Source: an uncultured bacterium
Lineage (GTDB): Bacteria > Bacillota_I > Bacilli_A > RFN20 > CAG-826
Reading direction: 5' to 3'
Assembly: GCA_949288485.1 (NCBI GenBank)
Contig: CASEKC010000004.1
Location: 62,001 to 126,000, forward strand
Length of the DNA: 64,000 nt
Shown here: positions 5,144 to 47,920 of the stretch, in pieces
Layout of the letters: each line of letters begins with the position of its first letter
How positions within the stretch are numbered: position 1 is the stretch's first letter
Made by a program: the position numbers and the translations under genes
Notes under the pieces: generated by a model
Seen by the model: the letters and a program-made list of their open reading frames with translations, nothing else
What the model was told of the DNA's origin: nothing
Database searches by the model: none

Positions 5144-5918
5144 AAGTTTCCACGTGAAAAATATTAATTGAATTTTTATAAACTTCTTCTTCAAAAACAT
5201 CTATATCCATATTTAATAAATTGCTTGCAAAAATTGAAGTATTTTTAATAAATTTTGGTTCATTTAACTTTCCACGATATGGCATAGGTGCTAAATATGG
5301 AGCATCAGTTTCTAAAACTATACTATTTAATGGTATAGAGGTTAATACTTGCTTAGTAACAATACTATTTTTAAAGGTTAATACACCACCAAAAGCTATT
5401 TTATAACCTAATTTTATAAATTCTTTAGCCATTTCTAAACTACCAGAATAGCAATGCATTACACCTTTCTCTTTAACTGGATGTTTTTTTAAAATATCAA
5501 AGGTATCTTGAATTGCATCGCGACAATGAATCGTTAAAGGTAAATTATATTTATTTGCTAAATCAATATGTTTTATAAACATATCTTTTTGTTTAATTTT
5601 TATTTCTTCTTCTTTTTCCCAATAATAATCTAAACCAGTCTCTCCGATTGCGAGTATTTTATTAGAAAATTTTAATAAATATTCTAACTTAGAAAAAATT
5701 TCATCATTAAATGATTTATGTTCAGTTGGCATAATTGCTATTGAAGCAAAAATTTCTTCATATTTATTTGCTAATTCAACAGCCTTTTTGGAGGATTCAT
5801 AATCCCATCCAACACATAAAAACTTATTAATCCCATTTTCTTTAGCTTCTTTTAAATATAGATCTAAATTTTCTAATAATCTTGGTTCGTTAAGATGAAT
5901 ATGTGTATCAAAAATCAT
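5133..5918 (-). CDS. tatD: TatD-family metal-dependent hydrolase/DNase
   Basis: TIM-barrel metallohydrolase of the YcfH/TatD group, with 3'-exonuclease or general hydrolase activity. 261 residues, normal length. Metal ligands are visible in DTHIHL (N-terminus), ETGLDYYW (about 93), TIHCRDA (about 129) and ETDAPYLAP (about 203). Only one base separates it from the mnmE stop, and its 3' end overlaps rnmV. In B. subtilis the same tatD-rnmV-rsmA string sits next to metG on the other side of the origin; here it has joined mnmE. Confidence 0.94.
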   Translation of the reverse strand: MIFDTHIHLNEPRLLENLDLYLKEAKENGINKFLCVGWDYESSKKAVELANKYEEIFASIAIMPTEHKSFNDEIFSKLEYLLKFSNKILAIGETGLDYYWEKEEEIKIKQKDMFIKHIDLANKYNLPLTIHCRDAIQDTFDILKKHPVKEKGVMHCYSGSLEMAKEFIKLGYKIAFGGVLTFKNSIVTKQVLTSIPLNSIVLETDAPYLAPMPYRGKLNEPKFIKNTSIFASNLLNMDIDVFEEEVYKNSINIFHVETYEN

Positions 5919-31255: not shown

Positions 31256-32572
31256 TTAACTATTAACTGCTATATTTTTAACAGCTAATGAAGGAACATC
31301 ATTTGAAGAAAGTGTAAGTTTATGGTCGTTTCCTACTGCAATAACATCATTAAATACTTTAAATAAGTTACCAGCAATAGTAATCAATGTTAAAGGACCA
31401 GCTTTTTTACCATCTACAACATGATATCCTTCACTTTGAAGTGAGAAATCACCACTTTCAGGGTTAAGTCCAGCATGTAAACCATTGATATCAGTGATAT
31501 AAACACCATTTTTAATTTTAGCAAATAATTCTTCTTGAGATAATTTTCCAGGTTTTAAAACGATATTTGAGAAAGAAATACCCATTTTTGAACCACTTCT
31601 TGAAGCATTACCGGTTGATTCAACCCCATCTTTAGCGGCGGTTTCAAGATTATAGAAATATGTTTTTAAAACACCTTTATCAAAAACTCGTTTATTTTCA
31701 CACGCAACACCTTCATCATCAAAATATGTGAAGAAACAATTTTTAGTTAATGGTTTTTCATCAATTGTAATTTTTTTAGATAAAACTTTGGTATTAAGTT
31801 TTCCTTCTAATAATGATGAATGTTTTTGAACTGCTTCGGCACTACAAGAACTTAAAAGTGCATTTAATAAAGAAGAAACTACATCAGGAGACAAAACTGC
31901 CTTATATTTTTTATTTTTAATTGGAGTTCCATGTAAAAGTGAAATAGCTTCATTTACAATTTTTGTAGCAAATTTATCTAAATCAAATTTTGATGGATCT
32001 GAATCTAAGAAAATATCTCCGCCAGATTTAATTTCATCGCCTTCTTTAACAACAACACTTCCATAAATATAGAAATAATTTCCTTTGTTTTTTAAATTTA
32101 ATCCGTAAGAATTAGAGAAATTTTCTTCACTAGAATTTTCACTATATTCAACTTGAACTTCGCTTACTCTAGAATCTAAACTCTTTAATTTATCTTCTAA
32201 TTTTTGTAAAAGTTCAATTTTATCTTCAACTTTCCATTCTTCTAAAGCTTTTGAATAAACATTTTTCTTATGATATTTTTTACTACCTTCAAAAATAATA
32301 GGTTTTTCTTCTTTTTCATTTAAAGAAGCTGCAGTTTTAATAGTATCGATTAAGAAAGAAGAGGTGGTTGCATCATCTTTTTCAGTTGTTGCCGAACCAA
32401 TTTTTCCATTAAAAATACCACGAGCTAAAATTTTTGAAGAGGTTGAAACTGAATATGAATCAATTTCTGAATGGAATAATGAGAAAGAGAAGTTTGTGTT
32501 TTTTGTTATAACAATTTCACTTGCTTCTAAACCAGATTCGCTAGCAAGTTTAATAAATTTTTTAGAATTCAT
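31256..32572 (-). CDS. tldE: TldE/PmbA subunit of metalloprotease
   Basis: Non-metal-binding partner of TldD; the heterodimer trims unfolded peptides and in some bacteria matures peptide antibiotics. I set the start at 32572 (MNSKKFIKLASESG, 438 residues): GAGGAGG precedes it, and the longer frame only reads through the tldD end. It overlaps tldD by 11 bases. GNASRSGSKMG and the C-terminal TLITIAGNLFKVFNDVIAVGND are family-typical, and no HExxxH is present. Confidence 0.92.
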   Translation of the reverse strand: MNSKKFIKLASESGLEASEIVITKNTNFSFSLFHSEIDSYSVSTSSKILARGIFNGKIGSATTEKDDATTSSFLIDTIKTAASLNEKEEKPIIFEGSKKYHKKNVYSKALEEWKVEDKIELLQKLEDKLKSLDSRVSEVQVEYSENSSEENFSNSYGLNLKNKGNYFYIYGSVVVKEGDEIKSGGDIFLDSDPSKFDLDKFATKIVNEAISLLHGTPIKNKKYKAVLSPDVVSSLLNALLSSCSAEAVQKHSSLLEGKLNTKVLSKKITIDEKPLTKNCFFTYFDDEGVACENKRVFDKGVLKTYFYNLETAAKDGVESTGNASRSGSKMGISFSNIVLKPGKLSQEELFAKIKNGVYITDINGLHAGLNPESGDFSLQSEGYHVVDGKKAGPLTLITIAGNLFKVFNDVIAVGNDHKLTLSSNDVPSLAVKNIAVNS

Positions 32573-33968
32573 TGATTGATCCTCCTCTTCCACCAACAAT
32601 AATTTCATCAACTCTAATTGTTGGTTGTCCAACATTTACTGGAATTGATCCTGATGCAGAACCACACATTCCTTGTCCAAAGCCGCCATCATTAGCAACC
32701 ATATCAATATGTTTTAAAATATCTCTAGCATTTCCAACTAATGTTGCGCCTCTAACTGGGCAAAGAATTTTTCCATCTTTAATAATATAAGCTTCACTAC
32801 AACCGAAGTTGAAATCTCCAGTTGAAGGATTAACGCTACCTCCTCCAAAACTTACTGCATATAAACCTAATTTCGTAGATTTAATAATTTCATCTGGAGT
32901 GTTTTTTCCTGGAGCAATATAAGTATTTGACATTCTAGAAGTTGGTTCGAATTTATATGATTGTCTACGGCAAGCACCATTTCCTTTTTCACCCATTCTT
33001 CTACCATTGAAGTTATCAACTAAGTAACCAGTTAAAACACCATCTTTAATTAATTCGTTCTTTTGTGGAACATTTCCTTCATCGTCTAGAGAATTTGAAC
33101 CCCATTCATTTGGTAAAGAGCCATCATCATAAGCGCTTACAATTGGATTTGCGATAACTTGACCTTTCATTCCTGAGAAGACTGATAAACCCTTAGCAAC
33201 AGAAGTCGCTTCTAATTGGTGTCCACAAGCTTCATGGAAGATAACTCCACCCCATCCATTTCCAATAACGACTGGGTATTTTCCTGCAGGACATTCTTTT
33301 GCTCCTAACATTAAAATTAATTTTTCAGCGTGTTCTTTTGCAAGTTTTTCAATATTAATGTTTTTTGTAAAGAACTCCCAACCAGCTTGAGTACCTGGAC
33401 CATCAAATCTTGTTTCGATTTTTCCATTTTCAGTTGCAACACTAGCTAATGCTAAACGACCATAAATACGGGTTGTATTCCAACATTTTCCCTCACTATT
33501 AAAAATTGAAACATCATTATGAGTAATTGCAAAATTTGTTGTTACTCTTGTAATTCTTTTATCAGATGAACTAATAATAGTTGAAGCCTTCTTTAAATAA
33601 TCGATTATTGTTTGATTATCAACGCTTTCAAGAGGGATTTCAACTTTATGTATATTTTTGACTCTAACTTTTTTAAGAGTTGTTAAAGTTTCAACAATTC
33701 TTGGGCTTGTAAAAGATGCTTTTAATGAAGCAACAAGTTTGAATAATCCTTTTTTTGTAAGGTCATTTGTATAACCGTATACACTTCTATTTTCTTTTAA
33801 TAATCTAATTCCAACGCCGTTAATAACATTGCTTCCAACACCCTCAACATTTCCATTTTCCAAAGAAAAACTTTTTAAGAGAGTGTCTTCATAATAGATT
33901 TCAGCAAAGTCTGCGCCAGTAGAAGTAGCTTCATTTAAAATATCGATAGCTAATTTCTTACTTATCAT
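32562..33968 (-). CDS. tldD: TldD zinc metalloprotease subunit
   Basis: 468 residues with the zinc motif FHEACGHQLEA (HExxxH) and downstream Cys ligand region GCSEAYIIKDGK. It acts with TldE, whose gene is translationally coupled. GGAGG lies 9 bases before the ATG at 33968. Its substrate here is unknown; no RiPP precursor is recognisable beside it. Confidence 0.95.
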   Translation of the reverse strand: MISKKLAIDILNEATSTGADFAEIYYEDTLLKSFSLENGNVEGVGSNVINGVGIRLLKENRSVYGYTNDLTKKGLFKLVASLKASFTSPRIVETLTTLKKVRVKNIHKVEIPLESVDNQTIIDYLKKASTIISSSDKRITRVTTNFAITHNDVSIFNSEGKCWNTTRIYGRLALASVATENGKIETRFDGPGTQAGWEFFTKNINIEKLAKEHAEKLILMLGAKECPAGKYPVVIGNGWGGVIFHEACGHQLEATSVAKGLSVFSGMKGQVIANPIVSAYDDGSLPNEWGSNSLDDEGNVPQKNELIKDGVLTGYLVDNFNGRRMGEKGNGACRRQSYKFEPTSRMSNTYIAPGKNTPDEIIKSTKLGLYAVSFGGGSVNPSTGDFNFGCSEAYIIKDGKILCPVRGATLVGNARDILKHIDMVANDGGFGQGMCGSASGSIPVNVGQPTIRVDEIIVGGRGGSINEF

Positions 33969-34122: not shown

Positions 34123-37100
34123 TTACTCTTTTCCTAGAATGTATAAGATATCTTCTTTTTTAAGATTTGTAATAGAAGAGTCGTCATTAGAAATAATTGA
34201 ATTTGCAACCTCTTTCTTTATCTTTTGAAGTTCTAAAACACGTTGTTCTATTGAATTATTTACAATCAATTTTAATACTTTAACATTTCTTGTTTGGCCA
34301 ATTCGATATGCTCTATCGCTGGCTTGTTCTTCTATAGCATAATTCCACCATGGATCAAGATGAATAACGACATTTGCTCCTATTAAATTAAGTCCAGTTC
34401 CTCCAGCTTTTAAAGAAACTAAAAGTACATCGTAAGCATCATTAAAATTAAAATCTTGAGCAATTTTTAATCTTTCTTGAGATTTAGTATCGCCTTTAAT
34501 TATTCCATAAGTTATTTTTCCTTTATTTAATTTATCTTTAATAATATTTAATGCGCCAACAAATTGAGAAAAGACTAAAACTTTATTGTTAGAAGAGATT
34601 TCTTCTTTTATACAATTTATTAAAGTATTAATTTTTTCACTTCCTCCTTCATATTTATCTATATATAAAGAAGGATCGATACATATTTGTCTTAATCTTG
34701 TAAGAGTTGGAAGAATATCGAAAGTATTTGTTGTTTCTTTCATCTTTTCTCTTGCTTTAAAAATTTCTGCATCATAAATTTTTTGTTGTTCTTTATTCAT
34801 TTCACAAGTTAATAAAATTTCATATTTATCTGGTAAATCTTTTAAAACATCGTTTTTATTACGTCTTAAAATAAATGGAGCGATTTTTCTTTTTATTTCA
34901 TTTTTATAATTTTCATCACTTTCATATGATGATTTAAATTCATTTAATGGTGGAAGAAAAGAAGACATTAAAAAATCAAAAATTGACCATAAATCTATAA
35001 TACTATTTTCAATTGGAGTACCTGTTAAAACAAATTTATTTTTAGCTTTTATCTTTTTAACCGATTTTGTTTTTAATGCATCAACATTTTTAATAAATTG
35101 TGCTTCATCTAAAATTAAAATATCAAATTCAATATTTTCATATTTTTTAATGTCGTTTCTTAAACTTTCATAACTTGTTAAATAAACTGCTTTTTTATTT
35201 AAATCTATATTTTTTATAATGTTTTCTCTTTCATTAATACTTCCATATATTGGGTTAATTTCTATATTTTCATTACTAAATTTTTCAAATTCATTGATCC
35301 AGTTATAAATTAAAGAAGTAGGTGTAACAATTAAAATTGGTTTAGAAATATTTAAAGAAGTTAAAAATGTGATAATTTCTAAAGTTTTTCCTAATCCCAT
35401 ATCATCAGCTAATATACCACCAAGATTATATTTATATAAAACTTTTAACCAATAATATCCTTCTTTTTGATAATCTCTTAAAGAAGCTGTGATAAAAGAA
35501 GGAATTTCAAAATCTTTAGTTTTGAAATTCTTAATATCTTCATATAATTCATCAATAACTTTATTATTTTTATCTTCTAATACTTCTAAATTTTTAAAAA
35601 CATAATAAAGAGGTAATTCTTTATTTTTTTCTATTTTTTTATTGGAAATTAAAGAAAAATCGTCAACTATATTTTTAAAATTAGTTGCATCGCTATTTTC
35701 TAAACCAATAATTTCATTATTAATTAATACAAAAGATTTTTTCTTTTTTATCGAAGAAATAATTTCTAACAATTCTTCATCACTATATTTACTTTCTTCT
35801 AATAAAATATCTAATAAATTAGATTGATAATTAATTTTTATACCTGGTTTTTTAAATTGATAGATCTTTTTATTTAATATAGAATCACTAAAATATATTT
35901 GACTTATTTCTTTTAAATCAGTTAATTCACTATTTAAAAAATTCCGAATAAGATGAGAATCACTAATTTTTCCATTTTCAAACCCATATTTATTAATTAG
36001 TTTTGAATAAAAGGAAAGTAAATAATTATCATTTTGATTAAATAGATAAGAACTAGTAATTTCTTCATTATTTTTAATATATTTAGTTGTAAGAGTTAAT
36101 TTATCATCGTTTAAATCTATATATGATTCAATAATTAAACTATGTTTTTTAAATTTAGAAACAATTGCCTTATCAATTTCAAAATATTTTTCATTTGAAA
36201 GATAAAATTTATATTTAAATTCATCAAAAACTTTAGAAATATTAGTAAAGGGTGCGGAAATAATTAAAGGAATTAAATTATTAATTATTTTATTATCGGT
36301 ATAAATATCGATTGTTTGATCTATTTTATTAATTAAAAATGGAAAACCACTTTTAAAGATTTCATATTGTGAAGGTAATTTATCTATCCTTAAATCTCCG
36401 TCTTCATTTATTTTTATTTTTATATCAATTGGATTTAAAGTTATTTTATATAAAATTTCTTCAATATAAATATGCGAACCTTTTAAAAGTGGAAAATAAT
36501 TTGGATTAGATAAAAAATTAAGATCATAGTTATAAAGTGAATCTTGATTAAAAAGTAAATATTCAATTAATCTTTGAGAATTTTCATCAAAATTAGAGAG
36601 TTTATGAACAAATTCTAAATTTTTACCATATTTATGATTACTTTTATTAGTAATATAAGATAAAAATTTAGTTACATTTTTTTGAGAATAAAAAGAATTT
36701 ATACCAATTTTTAATTGATAAAATTCATGCTTTTTATTAAATTCTGGGATTATTTTAACTTTATTTTTTAATTCATCTTCTGAAAAAAATTTTTCATAAA
36801 TTGAATTTAATTTATATAAAAATAATTTGTTTTCTTCTTCGCGAATTTTTTCATAATTTATCTTATTAAATTCTTCAAGAATTGTAGGCAATTCATCTTT
36901 ATATTTCATTTTTATAAATGAAATTATTTCATCGGTTACTTGATAAGAAGAAAATTCACTTTTTAACCAAAGATTTTTTCCTTCAATATTTAATTTAAAA
37001 ACTATAATATCGCTATTTTTTATTGTTATAAACATTGATAAGATAGAATTATTAATTTCGTAATTTATATCAAAATAATCTGAAAATTTTTGAGGAATTT

Positions 37101-38598
37101 CTTTTTCCTCAATATCTTCAAAATATTTATTAAGGTTTGTAACTGTTTTTTCTTGACTATCTTTAAAAAATGAATCAAATAAATATTCTAAATATATATT
37201 TTTCCCTCTAAAATAAAACCATAAATCTCTTTTGATATGTGTTAAATCAAAATTATGTTCAGTTCTACTAGTTTCGAAAAATTTAGTTATTAAAAATAAT
37301 ATTTCGTCATTTTTAATTAATGATTCTTTAAAAGCTGCGATTAATGAGATGGTAGTAGTTTGATAAGGACTTAATTCGAATAATTTCTTGATTGTTTTTA
37401 TATCAAAATAAGAAGAATATTTTTCATAATCAAAATCTTTAATTTTTATTAATTTAGCTAAAACTTTATTCTTATCGATTTCATTTTCTACTCGATTATA
37501 AAGAATTATTAAGTTGAAATCGTTAGCATTATCTAATAAATAATTAAAATTAGATTCATTTAACGAGATAAATTCTAAAGAATAATATAAAAAAGATTTA
37601 TAAAATTCACGCAATTCAAAATTAAAATTACTCATCTCATCAACAACTAATTTTAAATTTTTATAATTTTCATTAAAAAGAGAGTAAATTAATGAGTTAT
37701 TTAAATTATGGACAGGAGAAGTTATATCAGTGTCATTTAAAGGAAATAATGTTTCTTTAATTGATGTTATGTGTTTATTTTTAATTATATTTTGATTAAT
37801 TATGTCTAAGATATTTTCATTGTATGAAACAAAATATTTTAAAATTGAGAAATAATCTTTGCTTTTAAAATAAAAAGGGACATTTTTATCATTTAAAAGA
37901 GTTAGAAGTTCGATAATTTCACTATCGTTATTTAATTCGCAAAATTCTTTTATCTTTTTAAATACATCAATAAAGGTAGGTGAATTATTAATATTTTTAA
38001 TGAAATCTTGTATCTTTTGTGAATATTTTGATGGTTTAATGAATATATTTTTATTATTAAAAACAAGTTTATTACCCTTTTTATAAATATAAGAGTTATT
38101 ATTTAAATAATTAAGATCTATTCTTCCTAAATTAGCCTCTTTAGCAAAATTAGATATTTTATGTTTTTCTTTGATATATAAAATAAGAGCATATAAATGC
38201 TTACAATCTCCTTCATAAGGACAAGTACAATATAAAGAAATAACGTTATCATCAAAAGTTATAGATGTATCATATAAATCACTTCCAGAAATTGATGCGC
38301 TAACTTCATTTTCATCATCAATAAATAAATCAATATTATAGTCATTAGCATAACTTCTAGCGCGACTTCTAATTTTTATAGGGAAAAAATAATCTAAAAG
38401 ATTAAGATGAAAAACATCATAAATAGTTAAATTATCTACAACTTTTTTATTATTTAATGAATTAACGTTTTTAAGTGGAAAATTAAAAGGTCTATTTTCT
38501 AAAGGAAAATAAATTGAAGCTTGAGAAGAATTAATTGAAATAACTATTCCAAATTTAAAATTATCAAAATAAACAACTTCACCTTTTTTAATATTCAT
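34123..38598 (-). CDS. SNF2-family helicase with SWIM zinc finger
   Basis: 1491 residues. Near the N-terminus is a SWIM finger (C124, C126, C132, H134 in CTCPYEGDCKH). A long divergent middle follows. The SNF2 motor has GILADDMGLGKTLEIITFL (about 1060), LILDEAQFIKN, VLTGTPIEN, and the C-terminal half VLVFSQFVGAL, SLKAGGTGLNLIGAN and QASDRAYRIGQT. Bacterial SWIM-SNF2 proteins (YwqA-like) are dsDNA translocases thought to remodel nucleoprotein. The ATG is preceded not by a Shine-Dalgarno but by an extended -10-like TGTTAAAAT ending 8 bases before it. It is divergent from the KAP-like gene. Confidence 0.93.
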   Translation of the reverse strand: MNIKKGEVVYFDNFKFGIVISINSSQASIYFPLENRPFNFPLKNVNSLNNKKVVDNLTIYDVFHLNLLDYFFPIKIRSRARSYANDYNIDLFIDDENEVSASISGSDLYDTSITFDDNVISLYCTCPYEGDCKHLYALILYIKEKHKISNFAKEANLGRIDLNYLNNNSYIYKKGNKLVFNNKNIFIKPSKYSQKIQDFIKNINNSPTFIDVFKKIKEFCELNNDSEIIELLTLLNDKNVPFYFKSKDYFSILKYFVSYNENILDIINQNIIKNKHITSIKETLFPLNDTDITSPVHNLNNSLIYSLFNENYKNLKLVVDEMSNFNFELREFYKSFLYYSLEFISLNESNFNYLLDNANDFNLIILYNRVENEIDKNKVLAKLIKIKDFDYEKYSSYFDIKTIKKLFELSPYQTTTISLIAAFKESLIKNDEILFLITKFFETSRTEHNFDLTHIKRDLWFYFRGKNIYLEYLFDSFFKDSQEKTVTNLNKYFEDIEEKEIPQKFSDYFDINYEINNSILSMFITIKNSDIIVFKLNIEGKNLWLKSEFSSYQVTDEIISFIKMKYKDELPTILEEFNKINYEKIREEENKLFLYKLNSIYEKFFSEDELKNKVKIIPEFNKKHEFYQLKIGINSFYSQKNVTKFLSYITNKSNHKYGKNLEFVHKLSNFDENSQRLIEYLLFNQDSLYNYDLNFLSNPNYFPLLKGSHIYIEEILYKITLNPIDIKIKINEDGDLRIDKLPSQYEIFKSGFPFLINKIDQTIDIYTDNKIINNLIPLIISAPFTNISKVFDEFKYKFYLSNEKYFEIDKAIVSKFKKHSLIIESYIDLNDDKLTLTTKYIKNNEEITSSYLFNQNDNYLLSFYSKLINKYGFENGKISDSHLIRNFLNSELTDLKEISQIYFSDSILNKKIYQFKKPGIKINYQSNLLDILLEESKYSDEELLEIISSIKKKKSFVLINNEIIGLENSDATNFKNIVDDFSLISNKKIEKNKELPLYYVFKNLEVLEDKNNKVIDELYEDIKNFKTKDFEIPSFITASLRDYQKEGYYWLKVLYKYNLGGILADDMGLGKTLEIITFLTSLNISKPILIVTPTSLIYNWINEFEKFSNENIEINPIYGSINERENIIKNIDLNKKAVYLTSYESLRNDIKKYENIEFDILILDEAQFIKNVDALKTKSVKKIKAKNKFVLTGTPIENSIIDLWSIFDFLMSSFLPPLNEFKSSYESDENYKNEIKRKIAPFILRRNKNDVLKDLPDKYEILLTCEMNKEQQKIYDAEIFKAREKMKETTNTFDILPTLTRLRQICIDPSLYIDKYEGGSEKINTLINCIKEEISSNNKVLVFSQFVGALNIIKDKLNKGKITYGIIKGDTKSQERLKIAQDFNFNDAYDVLLVSLKAGGTGLNLIGANVVIHLDPWWNYAIEEQASDRAYRIGQTRNVKVLKLIVNNSIEQRVLELQKIKKEVANSIISNDDSSITNLKKEDILYILGKE

Positions 38599-38672: not shown

Positions 38673-39632
38673 ATGAATAAGAATGAATTATTAAATGTCT
38701 TAAAAGAATTTATTGTAAGTAAAGATAATGTAATTTTAATTGATGGTAAATGGGGAAGTGGTAAAACTTATTTACTTAATGAATTTATTAAAGATTATAA
38801 AGAAACTCCAATATACTATGTTTCTCTTTTAGGAAAGAGAAACATAGATGATATTAATACTTCTTTATATATGGAAGTACATAAAGATGAAGTAATTCAT
38901 AGTATAGTTCCTACTTCAGTATCGCCATTTAATGATGTTTCATCATTAGATTATATTTTAAAAATAAATAATAAATGTAAATATTTAGTTATATTAGATG
39001 ATTTAGAAAGATATGGTTCAACTAATTATGATGAATTTCTTTCTTATGTATCTTCACTTGTTTTAAAAGGAGTTAAAGTAATAGTAGTTTCAAATCTTTC
39101 TTATTTAGGAAGCGGTGAAAAATATAATTTTGAAATGTATAAAGAAAAGATTTTTGATCATGTTTATAAAGCTGATTTATTTTCTTCTTCTTTACTAGAA
39201 AGAAAATTAAATAAATATTATAAATATTTTGATGAATCTTTAATTTCTTTATTTAATAATAATATTCGTATAGTAGATAAATGCGAAGAATTCTTAGAAA
39301 TAATTGATAATCATCTTAAAGATAAGTTTCCACGTGATAATGAAAGTGTGATTAAATCTATAATTTTCTATACTTTAATCTTTTTAACTACTTTTTATAA
39401 TGAAATTCCTTTATCGTATCCAAAACTTCAAATCAAAGGAAAAGAAGAAGAAAGAAAATATATCTTTTCAAAATGTGAAAATGAAGAAGATGGTTGGGAA
39501 ATCTTTAAAGTATATGAATTCTCTTTAAATATAGTTTCATCTTATAAATTAGATAATCCTTTAGATTTAATAATTGCTCTTTATTTCCTTTATATTTATG
39601 GAAAGGAAGACTATTTATTATCTATTTTTTAA
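38673..39632 (+). CDS. KAP-like P-loop NTPase
   Basis: 319 residues. Walker A is GKWGSGKT (residues 25-32) and Walker B is YLVILDDLERYG (about 100-112). WGSGKT together with DDLER is the hallmark of KAP-family NTPases, although the membrane helices often inserted in that family are not clear here. KAP proteins occur in anti-phage systems and membrane signalling complexes, so a defence role is possible but unsupported by neighbours. No Shine-Dalgarno lies before the ATG; A/T-rich -10-like elements end within ten bases of it. Confidence 0.65.
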   Translation: MNKNELLNVLKEFIVSKDNVILIDGKWGSGKTYLLNEFIKDYKETPIYYVSLLGKRNIDDINTSLYMEVHKDEVIHSIVPTSVSPFNDVSSLDYILKINNKCKYLVILDDLERYGSTNYDEFLSYVSSLVLKGVKVIVVSNLSYLGSGEKYNFEMYKEKIFDHVYKADLFSSSLLERKLNKYYKYFDESLISLFNNNIRIVDKCEEFLEIIDNHLKDKFPRDNESVIKSIIFYTLIFLTTFYNEIPLSYPKLQIKGKEEERKYIFSKCENEEDGWEIFKVYEFSLNIVSSYKLDNPLDLIIALYFLYIYGKEDYLLSIF

Positions 39633-39661
39633 AAATATAGAAAGTTTTATTTATGAATAAA

Positions 39662-39739
39662 TTAGTCAACTGTTGGTTGACTAATTTTAATAAAAGTCAA
39701 CTAACAGTTGATTTATTGTTTTAAAGTTTTTGTTATAAA
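39662..39739 (+). promoter_or_regulatory. Operator pair 1 and promoter for the first small lipoprotein
   Basis: Distal site: TTAGTCAAC-N5-GTTGACTAA (39662-39684), a perfect 9-bp inverted repeat. Proximal site: GTCAAC-N5-GTTGAT (39696-39712). The sites start 31 bp apart. TATAAA at 39734-39739, extended by TG two bases upstream, lies 21 bp after the proximal site. The same arrangement recurs near 42.0 and 45.9 kb. Confidence 0.8.
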
Positions 39740-39798
39740 ATAAGTTTGTTTTATACATCTTTTAAATTTATTTAAATTTAAAATAAGGAAGAAAAATT

Positions 39799-40263
39799 AT
39801 GAAAAAGCGCTTTTTATTATTGGTTTCTATATTTAACTTAGCATTATTAAATTCTTGTTCTTTGTTTTATCCATATTTAAATGTTAAATCTTATGTTAAA
39901 AACAATTCTGCTTCTTTAGTTGGAGTTTTATTAAGAGATAAATCAAATTTTATAAAAATTAAAAATGATAAAAATGAAGAAGATTTTTTAAACGATTTTT
40001 CATCAATTAAAAGATCTAATAAAGATAAAGGAGATAAATGTGGATTTGATGAATTTTATGTAGTTTTCCATTCTTCTAAAAATGATGAATATTTTGGATA
40101 TGGAAGAAGAGTTTTCCTTCTTTATGAAAATTTTTCATTATCTAATTTAGAAGAAATAAGTATAAAACAAAGTAGTGAATGTTATACAAGTTCAGTCGAT
40201 AAATATTTTGAAGTTTGCAATAACTATTTTGATTTACCTGCTGATTTAACTACGTGTGGCTAA
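39799..40263 (+). CDS. Small lipoprotein, copy 1 (unknown function)
   Basis: 154 residues with a lipoprotein signal peptide (lipobox LNSC, Cys20), so probably anchored outside the membrane. The mature part has KNEEDFLNDFSSIKRS, KGDKCGFDEFYVVFHSSKND and EYFGYGRR, with several Cys (two in SECYTSS...EVCNNY, one at the end). Almost the same sequence is encoded at 47310-47771. No domain recognised. A purine-rich AAGGAAG is the ribosome-binding site, and paired palindromes lie ~90-140 bases upstream. Confidence 0.75.
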   Translation: MKKRFLLLVSIFNLALLNSCSLFYPYLNVKSYVKNNSASLVGVLLRDKSNFIKIKNDKNEEDFLNDFSSIKRSNKDKGDKCGFDEFYVVFHSSKNDEYFGYGRRVFLLYENFSLSNLEEISIKQSSECYTSSVDKYFEVCNNYFDLPADLTTCG

Positions 40264-40281
40264 AAAAAGATAATGTTAATT

Positions 40282-40330
40282 AAAAATTATCTCGATAAAA
40301 CTTTAAAAAATTATTATATAGATAATTTTT
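40282..40330 (+). terminator. Inverted repeat after lipoprotein copy 1
   Basis: AAAAATTATCT and AGATAATTTTT pair (11 bp) across a ~27-base A/T-rich loop. It may end the lipoprotein transcript before the XRE gene, although the loop is long for a terminator. Confidence 0.4.
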
Positions 40331-40377
40331 AAATATCTTGATGTCGAATATTTTATAGATTTATTATATTTAGGATA

Positions 40378-40938
40378 ATGATTAGTAACGAAGAAATTGG
40401 ATTAAGAATTAAAAATTTAAGAAAAGAGAAAAATCTTTCACAAGAAGAGTTAGGTGAAAAAATAGGGATTAGTAAACAAGCTGTTTCTTATTTAGAAAGT
40501 GGAAGAAATCAAATCTCTTTAGACATTTTGGATAAACTCCATACAATTTTTAATATCTCGATTGATGAGCTTTTTTATGGAGAAATAAAAGAAAAGGATG
40601 TAAATAATAAAGAAGATAATGAAAACATAGAAAAAATGACTAAAGAAGAAAATATTAAGAAAGAAACTAAAAGAACAATAAAAAAAGATCCGTTATTATT
40701 AATATTGTTAAGTATTTTGATATTACTTTTTATTGTTCTTCTTATTCAAATTATATATGCTTGTTTAAATCCAATATATTATAACTACACAACAGAGATT
40801 GTTTTTTGGTTTGCTTTTATCGACACCAATGAATCGACAATATTTTTGTTTTTTTTCATTATTTTTTCAATTTTATTTCTTATAGATTTAATTTTATTAA
40901 TTTTGAGGGCGTATTATGTTATTAAAAAGAAAAATTAA
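40378..40938 (+). CDS. Membrane-anchored XRE-family regulator
   Basis: 186 residues. An XRE helix-turn-helix (EIGLRIKNLRKEKNLSQEELGEKIGISKQAVSYLESGRNQISLDILDKL, given here by its ends at about residues 6-54) is followed by a charged linker and two membrane spans (about 105-130 and 150-180). Coupling of DNA binding to the membrane suggests sensing of an envelope or export signal. No Shine-Dalgarno: TATATT ends 7 bases before the ATG. It overlaps the next lipoprotein gene by 23 bases. It is the natural candidate for binding the three operator pairs around it; it has no such pair of its own. Confidence 0.85.
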   Translation: MISNEEIGLRIKNLRKEKNLSQEELGEKIGISKQAVSYLESGRNQISLDILDKLHTIFNISIDELFYGEIKEKDVNNKEDNENIEKMTKEENIKKETKRTIKKDPLLLILLSILILLFIVLLIQIIYACLNPIYYNYTTEIVFWFAFIDTNESTIFLFFFIIFSILFLIDLILLILRAYYVIKKKN

Positions 40939-41956
40939 TTTATTTGTTTTATTTTTTTCACTTTTATCTATTTCTTCATGTAATTTAAAAACTAATGAAG
41001 AAATAGATAGTTTTACTATTAATGATTTAAAAGATAAGTATAAATTAAATAGTAATAATAATGTTATTGATTTTGGAGATAGCTTAAAAATCGTAATAGA
41101 TGATTTAAGTTTTTTAAATGATAATAACGAAAAAGCAAAAAGAAGTAGTAATGATGAAGAAATAGAGTGCTTTGTTTTTGCTAATTATTTTAAAGAAGAA
41201 GGCAATAAAACAATCAGCGGAACATTAAGTGCTACTGAATATAGTAGCCCAAAGGACATAGATGATCTTTTAGAATATGTTTCTACTGATCTGTATAATT
41301 TATTAATTACCCCATATGATTATATTGAGCTCGATATTGGTAGTGACTGGAATTTTATTAATTCTACACTGGACTATGCAACGGTGTCTGATGAAAATCA
41401 AATTGGCGCAATAATAACAAATAATATTTCTCATTATTCTATGAAATATAAAGCTTCAGCAAATAGTTATTACTATGAAGATTTATGTTTAAATCAAATT
41501 AAAATTAAACCTTTAAGGTATAAAGATATACGTGCCAACGAATTAGATTTTTATTTTGATACAAATAATTTAGACCACGGTGTTAGTGAACGTTTTCCAC
41601 CTCGAAACGATAATGGTTTAGTTTATGGGTCTTTTTCATTGCTAACCAAAGAACAATTTTTTGGATATTCTTATGAAGCTTTATCAAATACTCCAAAAAC
41701 GGATCTTTATTTATTTGATAACAATAATATTTCTATACATTTCGAATATGTAAATTCTAATAAAGGAAGTGGAAAAGAAGTTGACTATGCTTCTGGGTCA
41801 TCAATGCAAGCTTGTAACGCTGTTTACACTTCTCAAAACGATTCGGATTTTATAATGGAAACTAAAACCGAAATCACACTTTTAGAATATAAGGGTAATC
41901 CATTTGATTTTGGTAAAGCTAAATTTGTAATTGAAAAAGATTTAAATTCGAAATAA
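40916..41956 (+). CDS. Lipoprotein of unknown function
   Basis: 346 residues. Signal peptide with lipobox SISSC (Cys22). The mature protein is acidic, rich in Asn/Asp/Ser, with no recognised domain; stretches such as ELDIGSDWNFINSTLDYATV and ISIHFEYVNSNKGSGKEVDY suggest a beta-rich fold. It starts inside the XRE gene with GAGGG upstream, so regulator and lipoprotein are made together. It could be the outside sensor or partner of the membrane-bound regulator (inference). Confidence 0.7.
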   Translation: MLLKRKINLFVLFFSLLSISSCNLKTNEEIDSFTINDLKDKYKLNSNNNVIDFGDSLKIVIDDLSFLNDNNEKAKRSSNDEEIECFVFANYFKEEGNKTISGTLSATEYSSPKDIDDLLEYVSTDLYNLLITPYDYIELDIGSDWNFINSTLDYATVSDENQIGAIITNNISHYSMKYKASANSYYYEDLCLNQIKIKPLRYKDIRANELDFYFDTNNLDHGVSERFPPRNDNGLVYGSFSLLTKEQFFGYSYEALSNTPKTDLYLFDNNNISIHFEYVNSNKGSGKEVDYASGSSMQACNAVYTSQNDSDFIMETKTEITLLEYKGNPFDFGKAKFVIEKDLNSK

Positions 41957-41983
41957 TTTTTGATTTTTATTAAAAAACGATAT

Positions 41984-42061
41984 AAGTCAACTATTAGTTG
42001 ACTCTTTTACATTAAGTAAACTATTAGTTGATTGAGAAATTTGTGTTTATAGGAATATATT
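41984..42061 (+). promoter_or_regulatory. Operator pair 2 and promoter for the C39-like/ABC operon
   Basis: Distal GTCAAC-N5-GTTGAC (41986-42002) and proximal GTAAAC-N5-GTTGAT (42016-42032), 30 bp apart; both spacers are TATTA. TATATT (42056-42061) begins 23 bp after the proximal site. AAGGAG precedes the gene at 42085. Confidence 0.8.
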
Positions 42062-42084
42062 AAACTTATATCAAGGAGATTTTT

Positions 42085-43230
42085 ATGAACATAATTAATG
42101 GCTTATTTATTTTATCTAATTTAGTTTTAAGTGCTTTTGCACCACTAAAAACAGAGAAAGTTTCAAGATTTAATCAACTTCCAATGAAATCAGAAATTAT
42201 ATTGCGCGACTTAAACGGAAACAACTTTATTCTTGAAGAAATGGAAAATAGTTATGCTATTTATCAAAAAAGCGGAGAAAATTTATTTTTTATTGAAGGT
42301 TCAAATTCTGTGAATTCTCCATATTTTGGTAAAAATTATGATAACTTAATTTATTTAGGCCCAGGAAATTATTACGTGTTTGAAAATGACACTCTTACAA
42401 ATTTATTAACGGAAGAAACATTAAAAACCAATGGAAGAAAGTTAAATTACAATCCTGCTTCAAAAATTAACTCAAATAATGCTGAAAAGCGTGTAGCTAA
42501 TGCTGAACAAAAATATATTAAATATGCAGATTATATTAAGCAATTAAAAGATGTACCTAGTAATACTGAAGGAGATTGTGGAATTATAGCTTTAAGTATC
42601 TTGCTTTCGTACTATGATTCTTGTATAGATGATAGGTTTTTAGACGATTCAGACTTCGCACCAACTAAAACAATCGATATTTGAGAAGTTCCAAATATTA
42701 GCGATTATTCTCAGACGCCTATGATTAGTAATTCTTTTAGAACAAGTTTTAAAAACGAATATTCGGTGTGTAATACATTTATACAATTTTTTTCAGGCGG
42801 GTATCCAATGGCGGACGCAGAATTATATACTACAATTGATAATTATTTAAATTCTCAAAATTCAGATATAAAGAATGACTATTATTTTGATCATCAAACT
42901 GTTTTCAATTTAGATATTGTAACAAAAGTTTATGACTATATTAGAGACGACGTTCCTGTTGTAATGGTTCTTGCTAATTATACAGACGATAAAGGTTATC
43001 ATGATGGCGAATGGCATGATGTTGTAGCTTATGGAATTAAAAACGATCATCTTGTTGTACATTTAGGTTATGATAATAGATCAGAAATTGAATTATCTAC
43101 TATTGGCTTATATGGATTTTATGCTATGAACCCTTTAAAAGAACATACACATCATTCTGAAAATATGAAATTTGTTCATAATGGCAAAAATTATGGTATG
43201 TGTGGATGTGGCATATATAATATTATTTAA
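42085..43230 (+). pseudogene. Secreted C39-like cysteine peptidase interrupted by in-frame TGA
   Basis: Two frames in the same phase (42085-42684 and 42721-43230) form one ~381-codon protein broken only by TGA at 42682-42684. A signal peptide opens it. The catalytic Cys165 is in EGDCGIIALSILLSYYD, before the stop. The His (residue ~311, GEWHDVVAYG) and an Asp/Asn (VHLGYDNR) lie after it, as in papain-like C39 peptidases. The rest is undamaged and Trp is TGG elsewhere in the gene, so this is a recent nonsense change, a sequencing error or readthrough. AAGGAG precedes the start; the ABC exporter follows after 2 bases. Confidence 0.7.
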
Positions 43231-43232
43231 TT

Positions 43233-45746
43233 ATGATTACTATTAAAAGTATTTTAAAAATATATAAATTAAAAAAGAAAAAAGAAGTAAAAGCTTTAGA
43301 TAATGTTTCCCTTACATTTTCAGGTAATGGAATTACCTTTATTTTAGGAAAATCTGGAAGTGGGAAATCTACTCTATTAAATATTTTAGGTGGATTAGAT
43401 AAACCAACTAGCGGGGAATTAATTATCGATGGTAAAAATACTTCTACATTTAAAGAATCTGATTATGATGATTATCGTAATAATTATTTAGGTTTTATTT
43501 TTCAAGATTATAATTTACTAGATGAGTTCAATGTTATCGATAACATTGAACTATCCTTAAAAATTAAAAATAGTGAATGTAATAAAGAAAAAATAGATAA
43601 AATCTTAGAAGAATTAGAAATTAAAGATTTGTCTTTAAGAAAAATAAATGAATTAAGTGGAGGACAAAAACAAAGAGTAGCAATTGCTAGAGCTTTAGTT
43701 AAAGAACCTTCTTTAATTTTAGCTGATGAGCCAACTGGAGCACTTGACGAAGATACAAGTTTACAATTAATGGAAGTTTTAAAAAGATTAAGCAAAGATA
43801 AATTAATTATTGTTGTATCGCATAACCGTGAATTAGCTTCTAAATTTGGAGATAGAATTATTGAACTTAAAGATGGAAAGGTGATTTCGGATACTTTAAA
43901 TAGAAAAGAAGAAATAAACGAATCTAATAATCAAAATGAATCTTCACTTGATAAAAATTACCATAAAGGTAAATTGCCTTTATTAACTAGTCTTAAAATT
44001 GGTCTTCGTAATTTAAGATTAAAAAAAGTTAAATTATTTTTTACTCTTTTTCTTTCATTTTTCTCATTTACCCTTTTTGGTTTAGTTTCAACTTTAATAT
44101 TTTTTGATGGTGAAAATGTAACTGCTTCAGCATTAAAAAGCATAGATACCAGTTCATATATAATTTTTAAAAACAATCCAAATCCCAATATTTCATTTAA
44201 CAATAATTTAAGTGAATTAAAAACTTTAGAAGAAGAATTTAATATAGATATTGATTCAATAAGTACATCTTTAGATTATAATTCATATCCTAGTAATACT
44301 AATTTTTATCCATTAGGTTCAAATGGAATAGTGAGTTCAATTTATGGAGAAATATATCTTGATGAAAGTAGAATTAATAATCTAGGTTTTTCTTTGGCTG
44401 ATGGAAAATATCCTTCAAAAATAGATGAAATTGCTTTAACTGATTTCCATTTTCTTAATTTTACTCAATTTGGATTTACTGATTATACCGATTCTTCTGA
44501 TGGCAAAATAATTGAGCCAAGTAAAATTAAAAATTACTCAGATTTAATAGGCAAAACTATTAATATTGATGGTAAAAAATTTAAAATAACTGGATTTATA
44601 AAAACTAATATTGCCGAAGATTTTTTAAATAAATTTTCGCTTATTTATAATAATGATTATAAAAATTCTTCATATGAAACAATTAATAATAATTTTACTA
44701 TTTCTTATGAACAAAATTACTCTAATCTTTTATATGTAAACAAGGAATTTTATGATGATTTAATTAATTTTAATGGTTTTTTAAATGTCTCAGATATTAA
44801 ATATTCAAATGATCTAATTCTAGATTCGTTTTCTATTAATATTCCGCTTATGGATGATGATTATTATTATTGGTCTTATATAGATTCAATTTCATCTCTT
44901 AATAAAATTGATAGAGATTATGTCTTTTTTGATTCTACTAAGACAAAATTAGAGAAAAATGAAATTTTAATATCTTCTTCTATATATGAAGACCATAAAG
45001 ATTTCTTTGATAGTGAAAATTCAAAGGATTTTAACTATTCAATGAGATATAGTTTAAACGGTGAAGAAGTTAATGCTGAAGGTAAAATCGTTGGTTATTT
45101 TAATGACGAAGATTCTTTAAAAATGAATAGTATTGTACTTGATGAAGATTTTTATAGTGAATTAACTAATGGTTGCGAATATTCTTTTAATTCTTTTATT
45201 TTTAAGAATAATTCAAATGAAACAAATAATGCATTTAAAACTTTTATTCATAATAAATTTGGGTCTGATTATAGCAATAAATTTGTTATTTACAATAATA
45301 TTGTTGCTAAAATTAGTGGTATCTCAGACTCATTTAAGCTTTTAAAATTTGGACTTTCTATTTGTGGAGTATTTCTAGCAATTTTTTCAATGATACTTTT
45401 TGGAAACTTTATATCTAATAGTATTTCTTATAGAAAAAAGGAAATTGGAATTTTAAGAGCGTTAGGATGTAGAAAAATTGATGTATTTTCAATATTCTTT
45501 TTTGAAGGATCAGCTATTGCTTTAATAAATTTCGTTTTATCTTTAATAGGAACGATAGTTTGTGTTGTTGTAATTAACAATTATTTAACTTCATTTATTT
45601 TAGTTAAAGCTAGTTATTTAAATATTGGAATAATTGAAATATTACTTTTATTATTAATTTCAATACTAGCAAGTACAATTTCTACATATATTCCTACCTA
45701 TCACTATACTAAGAAGAATCCTTTTGATGCAATTAATGGAAAGTAG
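43233..45746 (+). CDS. ABC transporter, fused ATPase and MacB-type permease (island copy)
   Basis: 837 residues with the same plan as the protein at 22370: ABC domain with LGKSGSGKSTLLNILGGLDKP, LSGGQKQRVAIARAL and LILADEPTGALDE; first span near 265-290; a large extracellular region; three C-terminal spans starting GLSICGVFLAIFSMILFGNF. It starts 2 bases after the C39-like gene. A role in exporting or processing a peptide with the neighbouring protease fits the context, but no substrate gene is evident. Confidence 0.9.
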   Translation: MITIKSILKIYKLKKKKEVKALDNVSLTFSGNGITFILGKSGSGKSTLLNILGGLDKPTSGELIIDGKNTSTFKESDYDDYRNNYLGFIFQDYNLLDEFNVIDNIELSLKIKNSECNKEKIDKILEELEIKDLSLRKINELSGGQKQRVAIARALVKEPSLILADEPTGALDEDTSLQLMEVLKRLSKDKLIIVVSHNRELASKFGDRIIELKDGKVISDTLNRKEEINESNNQNESSLDKNYHKGKLPLLTSLKIGLRNLRLKKVKLFFTLFLSFFSFTLFGLVSTLIFFDGENVTASALKSIDTSSYIIFKNNPNPNISFNNNLSELKTLEEEFNIDIDSISTSLDYNSYPSNTNFYPLGSNGIVSSIYGEIYLDESRINNLGFSLADGKYPSKIDEIALTDFHFLNFTQFGFTDYTDSSDGKIIEPSKIKNYSDLIGKTINIDGKKFKITGFIKTNIAEDFLNKFSLIYNNDYKNSSYETINNNFTISYEQNYSNLLYVNKEFYDDLINFNGFLNVSDIKYSNDLILDSFSINIPLMDDDYYYWSYIDSISSLNKIDRDYVFFDSTKTKLEKNEILISSSIYEDHKDFFDSENSKDFNYSMRYSLNGEEVNAEGKIVGYFNDEDSLKMNSIVLDEDFYSELTNGCEYSFNSFIFKNNSNETNNAFKTFIHNKFGSDYSNKFVIYNNIVAKISGISDSFKLLKFGLSICGVFLAIFSMILFGNFISNSISYRKKEIGILRALGCRKIDVFSIFFFEGSAIALINFVLSLIGTIVCVVVINNYLTSFILVKASYLNIGIIEILLLLLISILASTISTYIPTYHYTKKNPFDAINGK

Positions 45747-45872
45747 AATCAAACCACTTTACAAAATAAAACTTATTTTAAATTGAATATTTATACAATA
45801 TAAGAATGCGTTTTTCTTAAGAAAATGAAAAAAATATGGTTAAAAATAAGTATTTTCTACTAAGCTACATAA

Positions 45873-45950
45873 TGTCAACTTTTTGTTGACAATTTAATAC
45901 AAAAGTAAACAAATAATTGCTTGATATTGCCTTATTTTAGTTAGTAAAAA
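45873..45950 (+). promoter_or_regulatory. Operator pair 3 and promoter for the caspase-like operon
   Basis: Distal TGTCAAC-N5-GTTGACA (45873-45891) and degenerate proximal GTAAAC-N5-ATTGCT (45905-45921), 31 bp apart. TAAAAA (45945-45950) lies 23 bp after it. The preceding stretch from 45747 holds only an A/T-rich TTTTCTTAAGAAAA palindrome. Confidence 0.72.
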
Positions 45951-45975
45951 TAGTTATACGAGGAGGGTTATAATA

Positions 45976-47313
45976 ATGAACATAGTAACAATAATTTTAC
46001 AAACAACTTTAAGCTTATCTGTATTTTTTAATACTGAAAATACGTCCATTTCTAATCACAATTTTGATTCTATTAAAAATTTAACATTGGAATCTGGAGA
46101 GAAAAAAGAAATTAATTTAGATTTTTTGAGTAATAATCAGTATTGCTTGTATGAAATAAAAACAAAAGGAGACTGTGATACATATTTAGAATTATATGCT
46201 GATGGGAAATTAATAAAAAGCAATGACAATGATGGAGGATCTAAAAATTCAGTTATCTATTTTTCCAGAGAAAAAGGTGTATCTTATTCATATGTAGTTA
46301 AAAATAAAGAATCAAGCAAAAAGAATTTTACGGTTACTTTTTTGCCAGAGTATCCAGTTTATTTTAATAGTGTTGATTTACCTGATGACCCGGATGGCGC
46401 CAAAGCAATTAATACAATTAATGATGTCGAGAGTATAATAGACGATCTTAATAGTAACGGATATTATGTTAATAATTGTGTAAATGCTTCATTCTCTGAT
46501 ATGAATTCTAACGGAAGTAATGGCAGAAATAAATTTAATAATAAATATTATTTTATCAGCTCTCATGGTAGTGAATATGGAAGAATAACTTTTAATTTGA
46601 ATTCAAAAGTTTATGCATCTTCTTTTCCAATAATGGATAAATGTGAAGTAGCTATTTTTGCAATTTGTCATGGAGGAAAAGAAGGGAATGTAGCCGATTA
46701 TGTTGTTAAATATAAATCTGTTAAAAATTCAATAGGATGGCCCGGATCAACTTATACTGATATTTCTAAAACATTTACTGATACACTTTTTTATCGATTT
46801 AAATATGGCGATAATATTTATGAAGCAGCTGATGCCGCTTTAAATGAAATTAATTCGGTTTATTGGTATAAAAATGTTTTTAATAGCTGGGGTAAAGATA
46901 CTATTAAAGATTTTAAAATTTACGGTCTTGAAGAAAATCAATTAAGAAATAATTTTATTAATTTTAGCCAAAAAAAGAATGATAAATATATCTTTAATAT
47001 TGATAACGACGTTCTTAAAAAAATGATTGATTATTCATGTGATGGAGAAAATTATAAAATATTGTGTATTAACAATGTTGCAACTAACTATATTGCAAAA
47101 GAAATTAATGGCCAGTATTATTCGAATTTTAAAGATTTTAATTTAAAATCGCTTATTGAAAAAGATTCACCCAACCAATTATTATACATTTTTGATGGTG
47201 AGAAATATTATAATATTGAAGTATTGAATTATAATGAGAAAAACATTTTTTATGATTTCTCAAAAGACGAAATTCTAAATATAGACAATTTGAGGAGATA
47301 TATTAGATTATGA
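45976..47313 (+). CDS. Secreted PPC-domain plus caspase-like (clan CD) protease
   Basis: 445 residues with a short hydrophobic N-terminal signal. Residues ~35-130 resemble a bacterial pre-peptidase C-terminal (PPC) beta-domain (LTLESGEKKEINLDF, DTYLELYADGKLIKSNDNDGG). Residues ~145-320 look like a CHAT/clostripain-type caspase fold: YFISSHGSEYG (His197), AIFAICHGGKEGN (Cys231), SIGWPGSTYTDISKTFTDTLFYRFKYGDNIYEAADAAL, given here in pieces. The C-terminal ~120 residues are unknown. AGGAGGG precedes the start. It ends in TGA within ATGA, coupling it to the lipoprotein. Confidence 0.7.
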   Translation: MNIVTIILQTTLSLSVFFNTENTSISNHNFDSIKNLTLESGEKKEINLDFLSNNQYCLYEIKTKGDCDTYLELYADGKLIKSNDNDGGSKNSVIYFSREKGVSYSYVVKNKESSKKNFTVTFLPEYPVYFNSVDLPDDPDGAKAINTINDVESIIDDLNSNGYYVNNCVNASFSDMNSNGSNGRNKFNNKYYFISSHGSEYGRITFNLNSKVYASSFPIMDKCEVAIFAICHGGKEGNVADYVVKYKSVKNSIGWPGSTYTDISKTFTDTLFYRFKYGDNIYEAADAALNEINSVYWYKNVFNSWGKDTIKDFKIYGLEENQLRNNFINFSQKKNDKYIFNIDNDVLKKMIDYSCDGENYKILCINNVATNYIAKEINGQYYSNFKDFNLKSLIEKDSPNQLLYIFDGEKYYNIEVLNYNEKNIFYDFSKDEILNIDNLRRYIRL

Positions 47314-47771
47314 GAAAAAAATATTTTATTTTAGCTTATTTATTTAGCATTTCATTAACTTCATGTTCATTGTTTTATCCTTATTTAAACATCAAATCAT
47401 ATGTTAAAAGTAATAATGCATCTTTAATTGGAGTTATAACAAGATTTGATCATCAATTAATTGAACTTAAAGATAACAAAAATGAAGAAGATTTTTTAAA
47501 TGATTTTTCTTCAATAAAAAGATCGTATAAAGATAAAGGTGATAAATGTGGAATTGATGAATTTTATGTAGTATTTCATTCTTCTAAAAATGATGAATAT
47601 TTCGGATATGGAAGAAGAAATTTTGTAATATATAATTCCTTTTCTTTATCTAATTTAGAAGATATTAAGATTAAAGAAGCGCAGGAGTGTTATACGGATT
47701 CAATTAGTGAATATTTTAAAATTTGCAATGAATATTTTGATTTACCAGAATTAATAAATCAATGTGGTTAA
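47310..47771 (+). CDS. Small lipoprotein, copy 2
   Basis: 153 residues, lipobox LTSC (Cys19), close paralogue of the protein at 39799: both share SCSLFYPYLN, KNEEDFLNDFSSIKRS, DEFYVVFHSSKNDEYFGYGR and the Cys pattern. DNA similarity is also high in the middle of the gene, indicating recent duplication. Coupled by a 4-base overlap to the caspase-like protease, it may act as its surface partner or inhibitor (inference). Confidence 0.75.
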   Translation: MRKKYFILAYLFSISLTSCSLFYPYLNIKSYVKSNNASLIGVITRFDHQLIELKDNKNEEDFLNDFSSIKRSYKDKGDKCGIDEFYVVFHSSKNDEYFGYGRRNFVIYNSFSLSNLEDIKIKEAQECYTDSISEYFKICNEYFDLPELINQCG

Positions 47772-47796
47772 AAAATATTTTATAGTACAAATATGT

Positions 47797-47829
47797 ATTG
47801 AATATATATTCAATATAAACATTTTTTTC
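47797..47829 (+). terminator. Terminator of the caspase-like operon
   Basis: A perfect 20-base palindrome, TATTGAATAT + ATATTCAATA (47797-47816), is followed within a few bases by T7. Confidence 0.65.
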
Positions 47830-47858
47830 TTGATATTTATCCCTTTCTTTTCTATAAT
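47830..47858 (+). promoter_or_regulatory. Promoter of rpmE
   Basis: TTGATA (47830-47835), 17-base spacer, TATAAT (47853-47858). A start near 47865 gives a ~55-base leader. Confidence 0.85.
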
Positions 47859-47864
47859 CTCGAT

Positions 47865-47920
47865 ACATGCTTTCTTTGAACAAGAAAATAAGAAAGTTCA
47901 AGGCGGAAGGAGTAAAGAAT
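47865..47920 (+). promoter_or_regulatory. Possible autoregulatory leader of rpmE
   Basis: Two mutually exclusive pairings are visible: CTTTCTT with AAGAAAG, and TTGAAC with GTTCAA, the latter ending just before GGAAGGAG. Ribosomal-protein leaders for L31 are known in Firmicutes; whether this belongs to that family cannot be told by eye. Confidence 0.35.

Follow-up and report, generated by a model that had tools for sequence, protein, structure and literature searches.

Analysis of the window, the whole 64,000-nucleotide stretch of DNA studied here, which lies in a low-GC genome of 1.36 Mb, revealed a gene for a predicted exported cysteine peptidase that carries a PPC-like domain in front of a caspase-fold, CHAT-like catalytic domain and is coupled to the gene of a small membrane-anchored partner. 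The interpretation as a clan CD-type protease with a coupled partner is supported; the domain fold (via a homologue) and the gene pairing are well supported, and catalysis and inhibition are what we infer. As an explanation of the pair we tentatively favour, at a likelihood a little short of even, a clan CD peptidase that is exported and a surface lipoprotein that serves as immunity protein or inhibitor, the two being exchanged as a cassette. The protease gene is organised as follows:

45960..45967, forward strand: Shine-Dalgarno-like GAGGAGGG, 5' of the protease ATG (sequence)
45976..47313, forward strand: predicted exported PPC plus caspase-fold (CHAT-like) cysteine peptidase, 445 aa, ATG start
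45976..46035, forward strand: N-terminal hydrophobic export signal, residues 1-20 (sequence; model helix 2-19)
46060..46356, forward strand: PPC-like beta jelly-roll domain, residues 29-127 (confidently modelled; fold matches)
46357..46929, forward strand: caspase-fold catalytic domain, residues 128-318 (family alignment, hhalign, homologue model, fold search)
46564..46566, forward strand: codon CAT of the predicted catalytic His197, in ISSHG (sequence, family alignment)
46666..46668, forward strand: codon TGT of the predicted catalytic Cys231, in AICHGG (sequence, family alignment)
46930..47310, forward strand: C-terminal domain, residues 319-445 (~125 residues), the fastest-diverging folded part

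The stop codon of the protease, TGA (47311-47313), overlaps the ATG of the gene for lipoprotein B (47310) as ATGA; scans for promoter and terminator consensus sequences gave chance-level matches only. The original prediction, which had been made from the letters of the window, described the open reading frame, both dyad motifs and the overlap with the lipoprotein as they stand in the DNA, and its proposal of a secreted protein agrees with the putative N-terminal hydrophobic export signal over residues 1-20. The stretch GWP...FTDTLFYRF...AADAAL, which it had called a tail of the kind seen in CHAT-like folds, corresponds to the conserved beta5/alpha4/alpha5 portion of the CHAT-like domain. His232 of AICHGG is not conserved, and most family members in the alignment have Tyr at that position.

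AlphaFold modelling of the window protein reached a mean pLDDT of 44.5 overall, with a confident PPC region and a poor catalytic region. Residues 26-127 of this model match jelly rolls of proteases and a genuine PPC structure (Z 11.1 to 3afg and Z 8.8 to 5sv5, the B. anthracis collagenase PPC), in keeping with the PPC-like domain that had been placed in front; we name the domain PPC-like because Pfam PPC has no sequence match in the protein. With the window's own model too poor in the catalytic part, the caspase-type alpha/beta fold was recognised through a homologue, the L026 catalytic domain, which is 25% identical to that of the window and was aligned with L025, L027 and the window. The model of this domain (pLDDT 75.4, pTM 0.80) has SAVED-CHAT as its top PDB match (Z 17.1, 174 residues, 2.8 A), with gingipain R (Z 15.7), DdvA (8rot, 15.3), legumain (14.2), MALT1 (13.6) and separase (12.9) as further matches, gingipain K and caspases also matching, and a best Foldseek match at E 7.1e-9. 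A fold that is not caspase-like had been named as one outcome that would overturn the prediction, and the best matches of the homologue model are clan CD folds. The motifs around His197 and Cys231 align with those of the family, and their equivalents in the homologue model stand directly after core strands (His71 after strand 65-70, Cys103 after strand 97-102), that is, at the clan CD dyad site, which supports the layout suggested for the two residues. The Pfam CHAT model (PF12770, curated cut-off 24 bits) recognised one distant homologue at 28.6 bits, with four others at 15-21 bits, and gave no match to the window protein; since the latter is below the Pfam cut-off, we call it CHAT-like and do not assign it to PF12770. 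Taken together, modelling and alignment point to a predicted clan CD (caspase-fold) CHAT-like peptidase.

Used alone as a query, the window protein retrieved one counterpart, 71% identical, in 1 of the 25 other genomes of the genus, and nothing in Pfam, NCBIfam, PDB sequences, PADLOC, phages, plasmids or viral contigs, so that family-based searches were needed. A two-sequence profile and then family profiles added G079, G047, G202, G341, G473, G317, G524, G306, G338 and G760, giving about ten distant relatives across Bacilli. The hhalign comparison of the window profile with the G317/G341/G524 group, the CHAT-matching homologues, gave 98.7% (E 3.4e-16) over 324 columns, PPC included. One element of the original prediction needs amending: a PPC domain before a caspase-like domain, which had been regarded as an unusual build, is the standard architecture of this small family. 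Both His and Cys are kept in 10 of the 12 members in the alignment and both are absent in the other two (G306 and G202), with Leu and Ser replacing them in G306. In G338 the protease gene is split over two frames, perhaps through an error in the MAG. The G202 member (L038 12252-13364), without His or Cys, adjoins ABC transporter genes; the small partner is absent downstream, and the upstream side lies beyond the contig end.

The family is rare and patchy, found in 2 of 26 genomes of the genus, in 5 of the 395 genomes sampled from the class (a count that includes G580, matched in the PPC region only) and in 7 of the 392 sampled from the phylum, and neither Pfam, NCBIfam nor PADLOC has a model for it. 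The order level yielded weak matches (L006-L012), which were discarded as PPC-type only or chance and not homologues of the catalytic domain, and a plasmid- or phage-borne origin was dropped when phage, plasmid and viral collections gave no support. Between the window and its sister species the protease gene is under purifying selection, with 71% identity and a dN/dS of 0.14 for the whole protein. Among the large parts, the catalytic domain is conserved best (87% identity, dN/dS 0.08), and the PPC domain has a dN/dS of 0.10, the export signal 0.28 and the C-terminal part 0.22 with 52% identity. This 71% identical counterpart with its dN/dS, together with the dyad motifs aligned in 10/12 members, sets the open reading frame beyond chance.

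The pair occupies a variable chromosomal site (39632-47867) between a KAP-NTPase gene and rpmE-metG. At this site the flanks touch in G022, G023 and G005 (empty site), G010 holds glycosyltransferases, and G014 a decayed island remnant without the protease. In the window the site holds, besides the protease, the following genes:

39799..40263, forward strand: lipoprotein A, a protease-less paralogue, 67% identical to lipoprotein B
40378..40938, forward strand: XRE helix-turn-helix protein with a membrane part
40916..41956, forward strand: island lipoprotein of 346 aa, no Pfam match above cut-off
42085..43230, forward strand: gene of a secreted C39-like peptidase, interrupted by an in-frame TGA (42682-42684)
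43233..45746, forward strand: ABC transporter, FtsX-type permease, 837 aa
47310..47771, forward strand: lipoprotein B, 153 aa, lipobox LTSC with Cys19, overlapping the protease stop

Lipoprotein A, the XRE protein with its membrane part (XRE-TM), the 346-aa lipoprotein and the ABC-FtsX transporter form a backbone common to the window and the sister species G003, where they are ~94-95% identical. The dS of this backbone is 0.06-0.21, against 1.30 for the protease and 0.79 for lipoprotein B, and the pair has 76% DNA identity between the two genomes. Its place also differs: the pair stands 3' of the ABC gene in the window and before the ABC gene in G003, in the slot that the split C39-like peptidase gene takes in the window. 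Low backbone dS, high pair dS and the different slot together indicate that the pair is an exchangeable cassette or a differently sorted ancient paralogue. Each sister species carries an older, distinct allele of the protease-lipoprotein B pair, and each of their islands holds a second, protease-less lipoprotein, lipoprotein A, which is without a protease of its own and 94% identical in both. In G760 (L036 2734-5986), the genes ahead of the protease are those of a lipoprotein that has a matrixin-like match and of an ABC-FtsX transporter, an arrangement that parallels the C39-like and ABC-FtsX genes of the window. Elsewhere in the window, an SNF2-type helicase gene (34123-38598) shows 71% identity and a dN/dS of 0.32 between the sister species, and its neighbour (32562-33968) is slower (93%, dN/dS 0.08).

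A small membrane-anchored protein adjoins the protease in all ten dyad-bearing members, and with the ATGA overlap this makes it an adjacent, co-translation-like partner; gene order in these ten loci supports the enzyme and partner pair that had been suggested for the window. The form of the partner varies. The window, G003 and G079 have a lipoprotein; G317, G341, G047 and G338 have a protein with one helix and an outer domain of ~100 residues. In G524 (L027) the partner is an XRE-TM protein ending in an outer domain like that of the helix-anchored partners, its gene (5201-5860) overlapping the protease start by ATGA, and in G473 and G760 the neighbour is a multi-helix protein without an outer domain. 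In G306, across two contigs, a lipidated protein of the one-helix type lies behind a C-terminal fragment of the dead protease. From these partner types, including the lipidated one of G306, lipid and helix anchors seem interchangeable. The notion that dead proteases are without a partner was abandoned when the partner was found beside the G306 remnant.

No homology of sequence links the window lipoproteins with the TM-anchored partners: a relationship suggested by visual inspection and by a first, small set (hhalign 25%; best shuffle Z 4.6) is not claimed, since the hhalign value fell to 1.6% with the larger member set. They match no Pfam family and bear no sequence likeness to known inhibitors. 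Because they lack homology to the TM partners and to Pfam, the label "inhibitor" rests on position and topology. At the G079 locus (L034 3456-6211), a predicted exported protein of 753 aa with a weak trypsin-like match and DUF7689 adjoins the protease, and its gene overlaps that of a 165-aa lipoprotein by ATGA, forming a second pair of a secreted peptidase-like protein and a lipoprotein.

In the explanation we favour, the caspase-fold cysteine peptidase, with its PPC-like jelly roll in front, would be exported and leave the cell, and lipoprotein B, co-translated with it, would be held on the outer face of that cell's membrane. The peptidase would most likely act extracellularly on other cells or surface proteins, and lipoprotein B, at the surface of the producer, would most likely bind it and serve as its specific inhibitor or immunity protein. 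Protease and lipoprotein B would move as one cassette within the hotspot island, and lipoprotein A may be a leftover or broadening immunity copy. The joint production of an exported peptidase and an outer protein anchored in the membrane accords with a protease and its surface inhibitor, and cassette exchange and the spare lipoprotein A fit an immunity role; peptidase catalysis, its target, lipoprotein binding and inhibition are inferred. Counter to an inhibitor stand the partner of G306 (two contigs), which seems retained beside a member without both catalytic residues, the fusion of the L027 partner domain to a helix-turn-helix protein, which suggests signalling, and the neighbour of two members, a multi-helix protein without an outer domain.

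Because of the L027 fusion, outside-in signalling stays a rival, unlikely but the most credible of the alternatives. The partner would then be a receptor or substrate of the exported peptidase, with its state relayed to a membrane-bound XRE regulator, and the ATGA overlap of the L027 XRE-TM gene with the protease start, the partner-like extracytoplasmic domain at the end of its product, the XRE-TM genes near the protease also in the window, G003 and G079, and the occurrence of a clan CD-fold domain in the transmembrane anti-sigma factor DdvA (8rot, Z 15.3) are all consistent with it. The fusion occurs, however, in only 1 of 10 dyad-bearing loci, the XRE-TM protein of the window has no comparable outer domain, and the window lipoprotein has no cytoplasmic part. 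A marginally less probable reading would see a CHAT-like protease outside the cytoplasm, together with a receptor that is anchored in the membrane and in some cases directly fused to a DNA-binding domain, as a cassette-exchanged module of small-genome Bacilli for outside-in proteolytic signalling or kin recognition. The interchange of a lipid anchor and a single TM helix among the partners, again including that of G306, keeps a tether or cofactor role in contention, if with a slightly smaller chance still: the lipoprotein would keep the peptidase, which has no anchor of its own, on the producer surface for the maturation or shedding of surface proteins, and FtsX-type ABC transporters do adjoin the protease in the window, G003 and G760. 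This account leaves unexplained both the protease-less lipoprotein A, 94% identical in both sister species, and the cassette exchange of the pair.

The faster divergence of the C-terminal part than of the other folded parts (52% identity) would fit a polymorphic toxin, in which the caspase domain processes itself to free a C-terminal effector (residues 319-445) and the lipoprotein is the immunity to that effector; Sec-exported polymorphic toxins do have caspase-like releasing domains and toxin domains (PMC3482391). We consider this improbable, as the C-terminal part seems common to the family (hhalign reaches residue 389) and is not a swapped tip, and a Pfam search found no known toxin domain in the window protein. 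Least probable of all, by a hair, is a pseudoenzyme or adhesin that has retained the caspase fold for binding only: two relatives have lost both His and Cys, but both are present in 10 of 12, and no other large part of the window protein is as well conserved as the catalytic domain (87% identity, dN/dS 0.08).

Both clan CD and the CHAT domain are familiar, and the CHAT-type proteases known best act inside the cell as executors of bacterial immunity (Craspase, SAVED-CHAT). CHAT proteases (PF12770: SAVED-CHAT, TPR-CHAT/Craspase, separase-like) likewise have a caspase fold, with the closest structural match at Z 17.1, a His in a GHG-type motif and a Cys after a core strand, whereas the window protein is predicted to be exported, has a PPC-like domain and a membrane-anchored partner, and falls below Pfam detection. 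Nothing marked it as an anti-phage CHAT protease, as PADLOC matched neither the proteases nor the lipoprotein and no CRISPR, SAVED or other defence neighbours were seen. Gingipains (C25) and other exported clan CD peptidases share export and clan, gingipain R being the second-best match (Z 15.7); compared with gingipains, the window protein has just one, small catalytic domain, preceded by a PPC-like domain, and a lipoprotein partner.

SpeB-Spi, staphopain-staphostatin and B. fragilis Bfp-Bfi are likewise exported cysteine proteases adjoining a small protein of ~110-150 aa. The SpeB, staphopain and Bfp proteases are papain-like enzymes of clan CA, in contrast to the clan CD of the window protease. 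The window partner is without detectable homology to known inhibitors, and its inhibitory role is proposed by analogy. The small partner may be a lipoprotein in Bfi as in the window, and the distribution is likewise mobile (PMC2873492): in Bacteroides fragilis, C10 protease genes share transcripts with genes of small inhibitor-like proteins, some of which are predicted to be lipoproteins, and large insertions house two of the four protease genes (PMC2873492). A 2012 paper described exported bacterial toxins that contain caspase-like domains (PMC3482391), and polymorphic toxin systems with such domains likewise combine a Sec-exported caspase-fold peptidase with an immunity-like neighbour (PMC3482391); the window system differs from them in lacking both a large protein with repeats and a variable toxin tip.

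A search of the open-access literature found no description of an exported PPC plus CHAT-like family with a membrane-anchored partner. Should the lipoprotein prove to be an inhibitor, the two would form an extracellular clan CD protease-immunity pair and a small target for structure work, and the distinct alleles in two sister species offer ready cognate and non-cognate pairs for specificity tests. Unlike the intracellular executors, the CHAT-type fold is here predicted to be exported and is coupled to a membrane-anchored partner.
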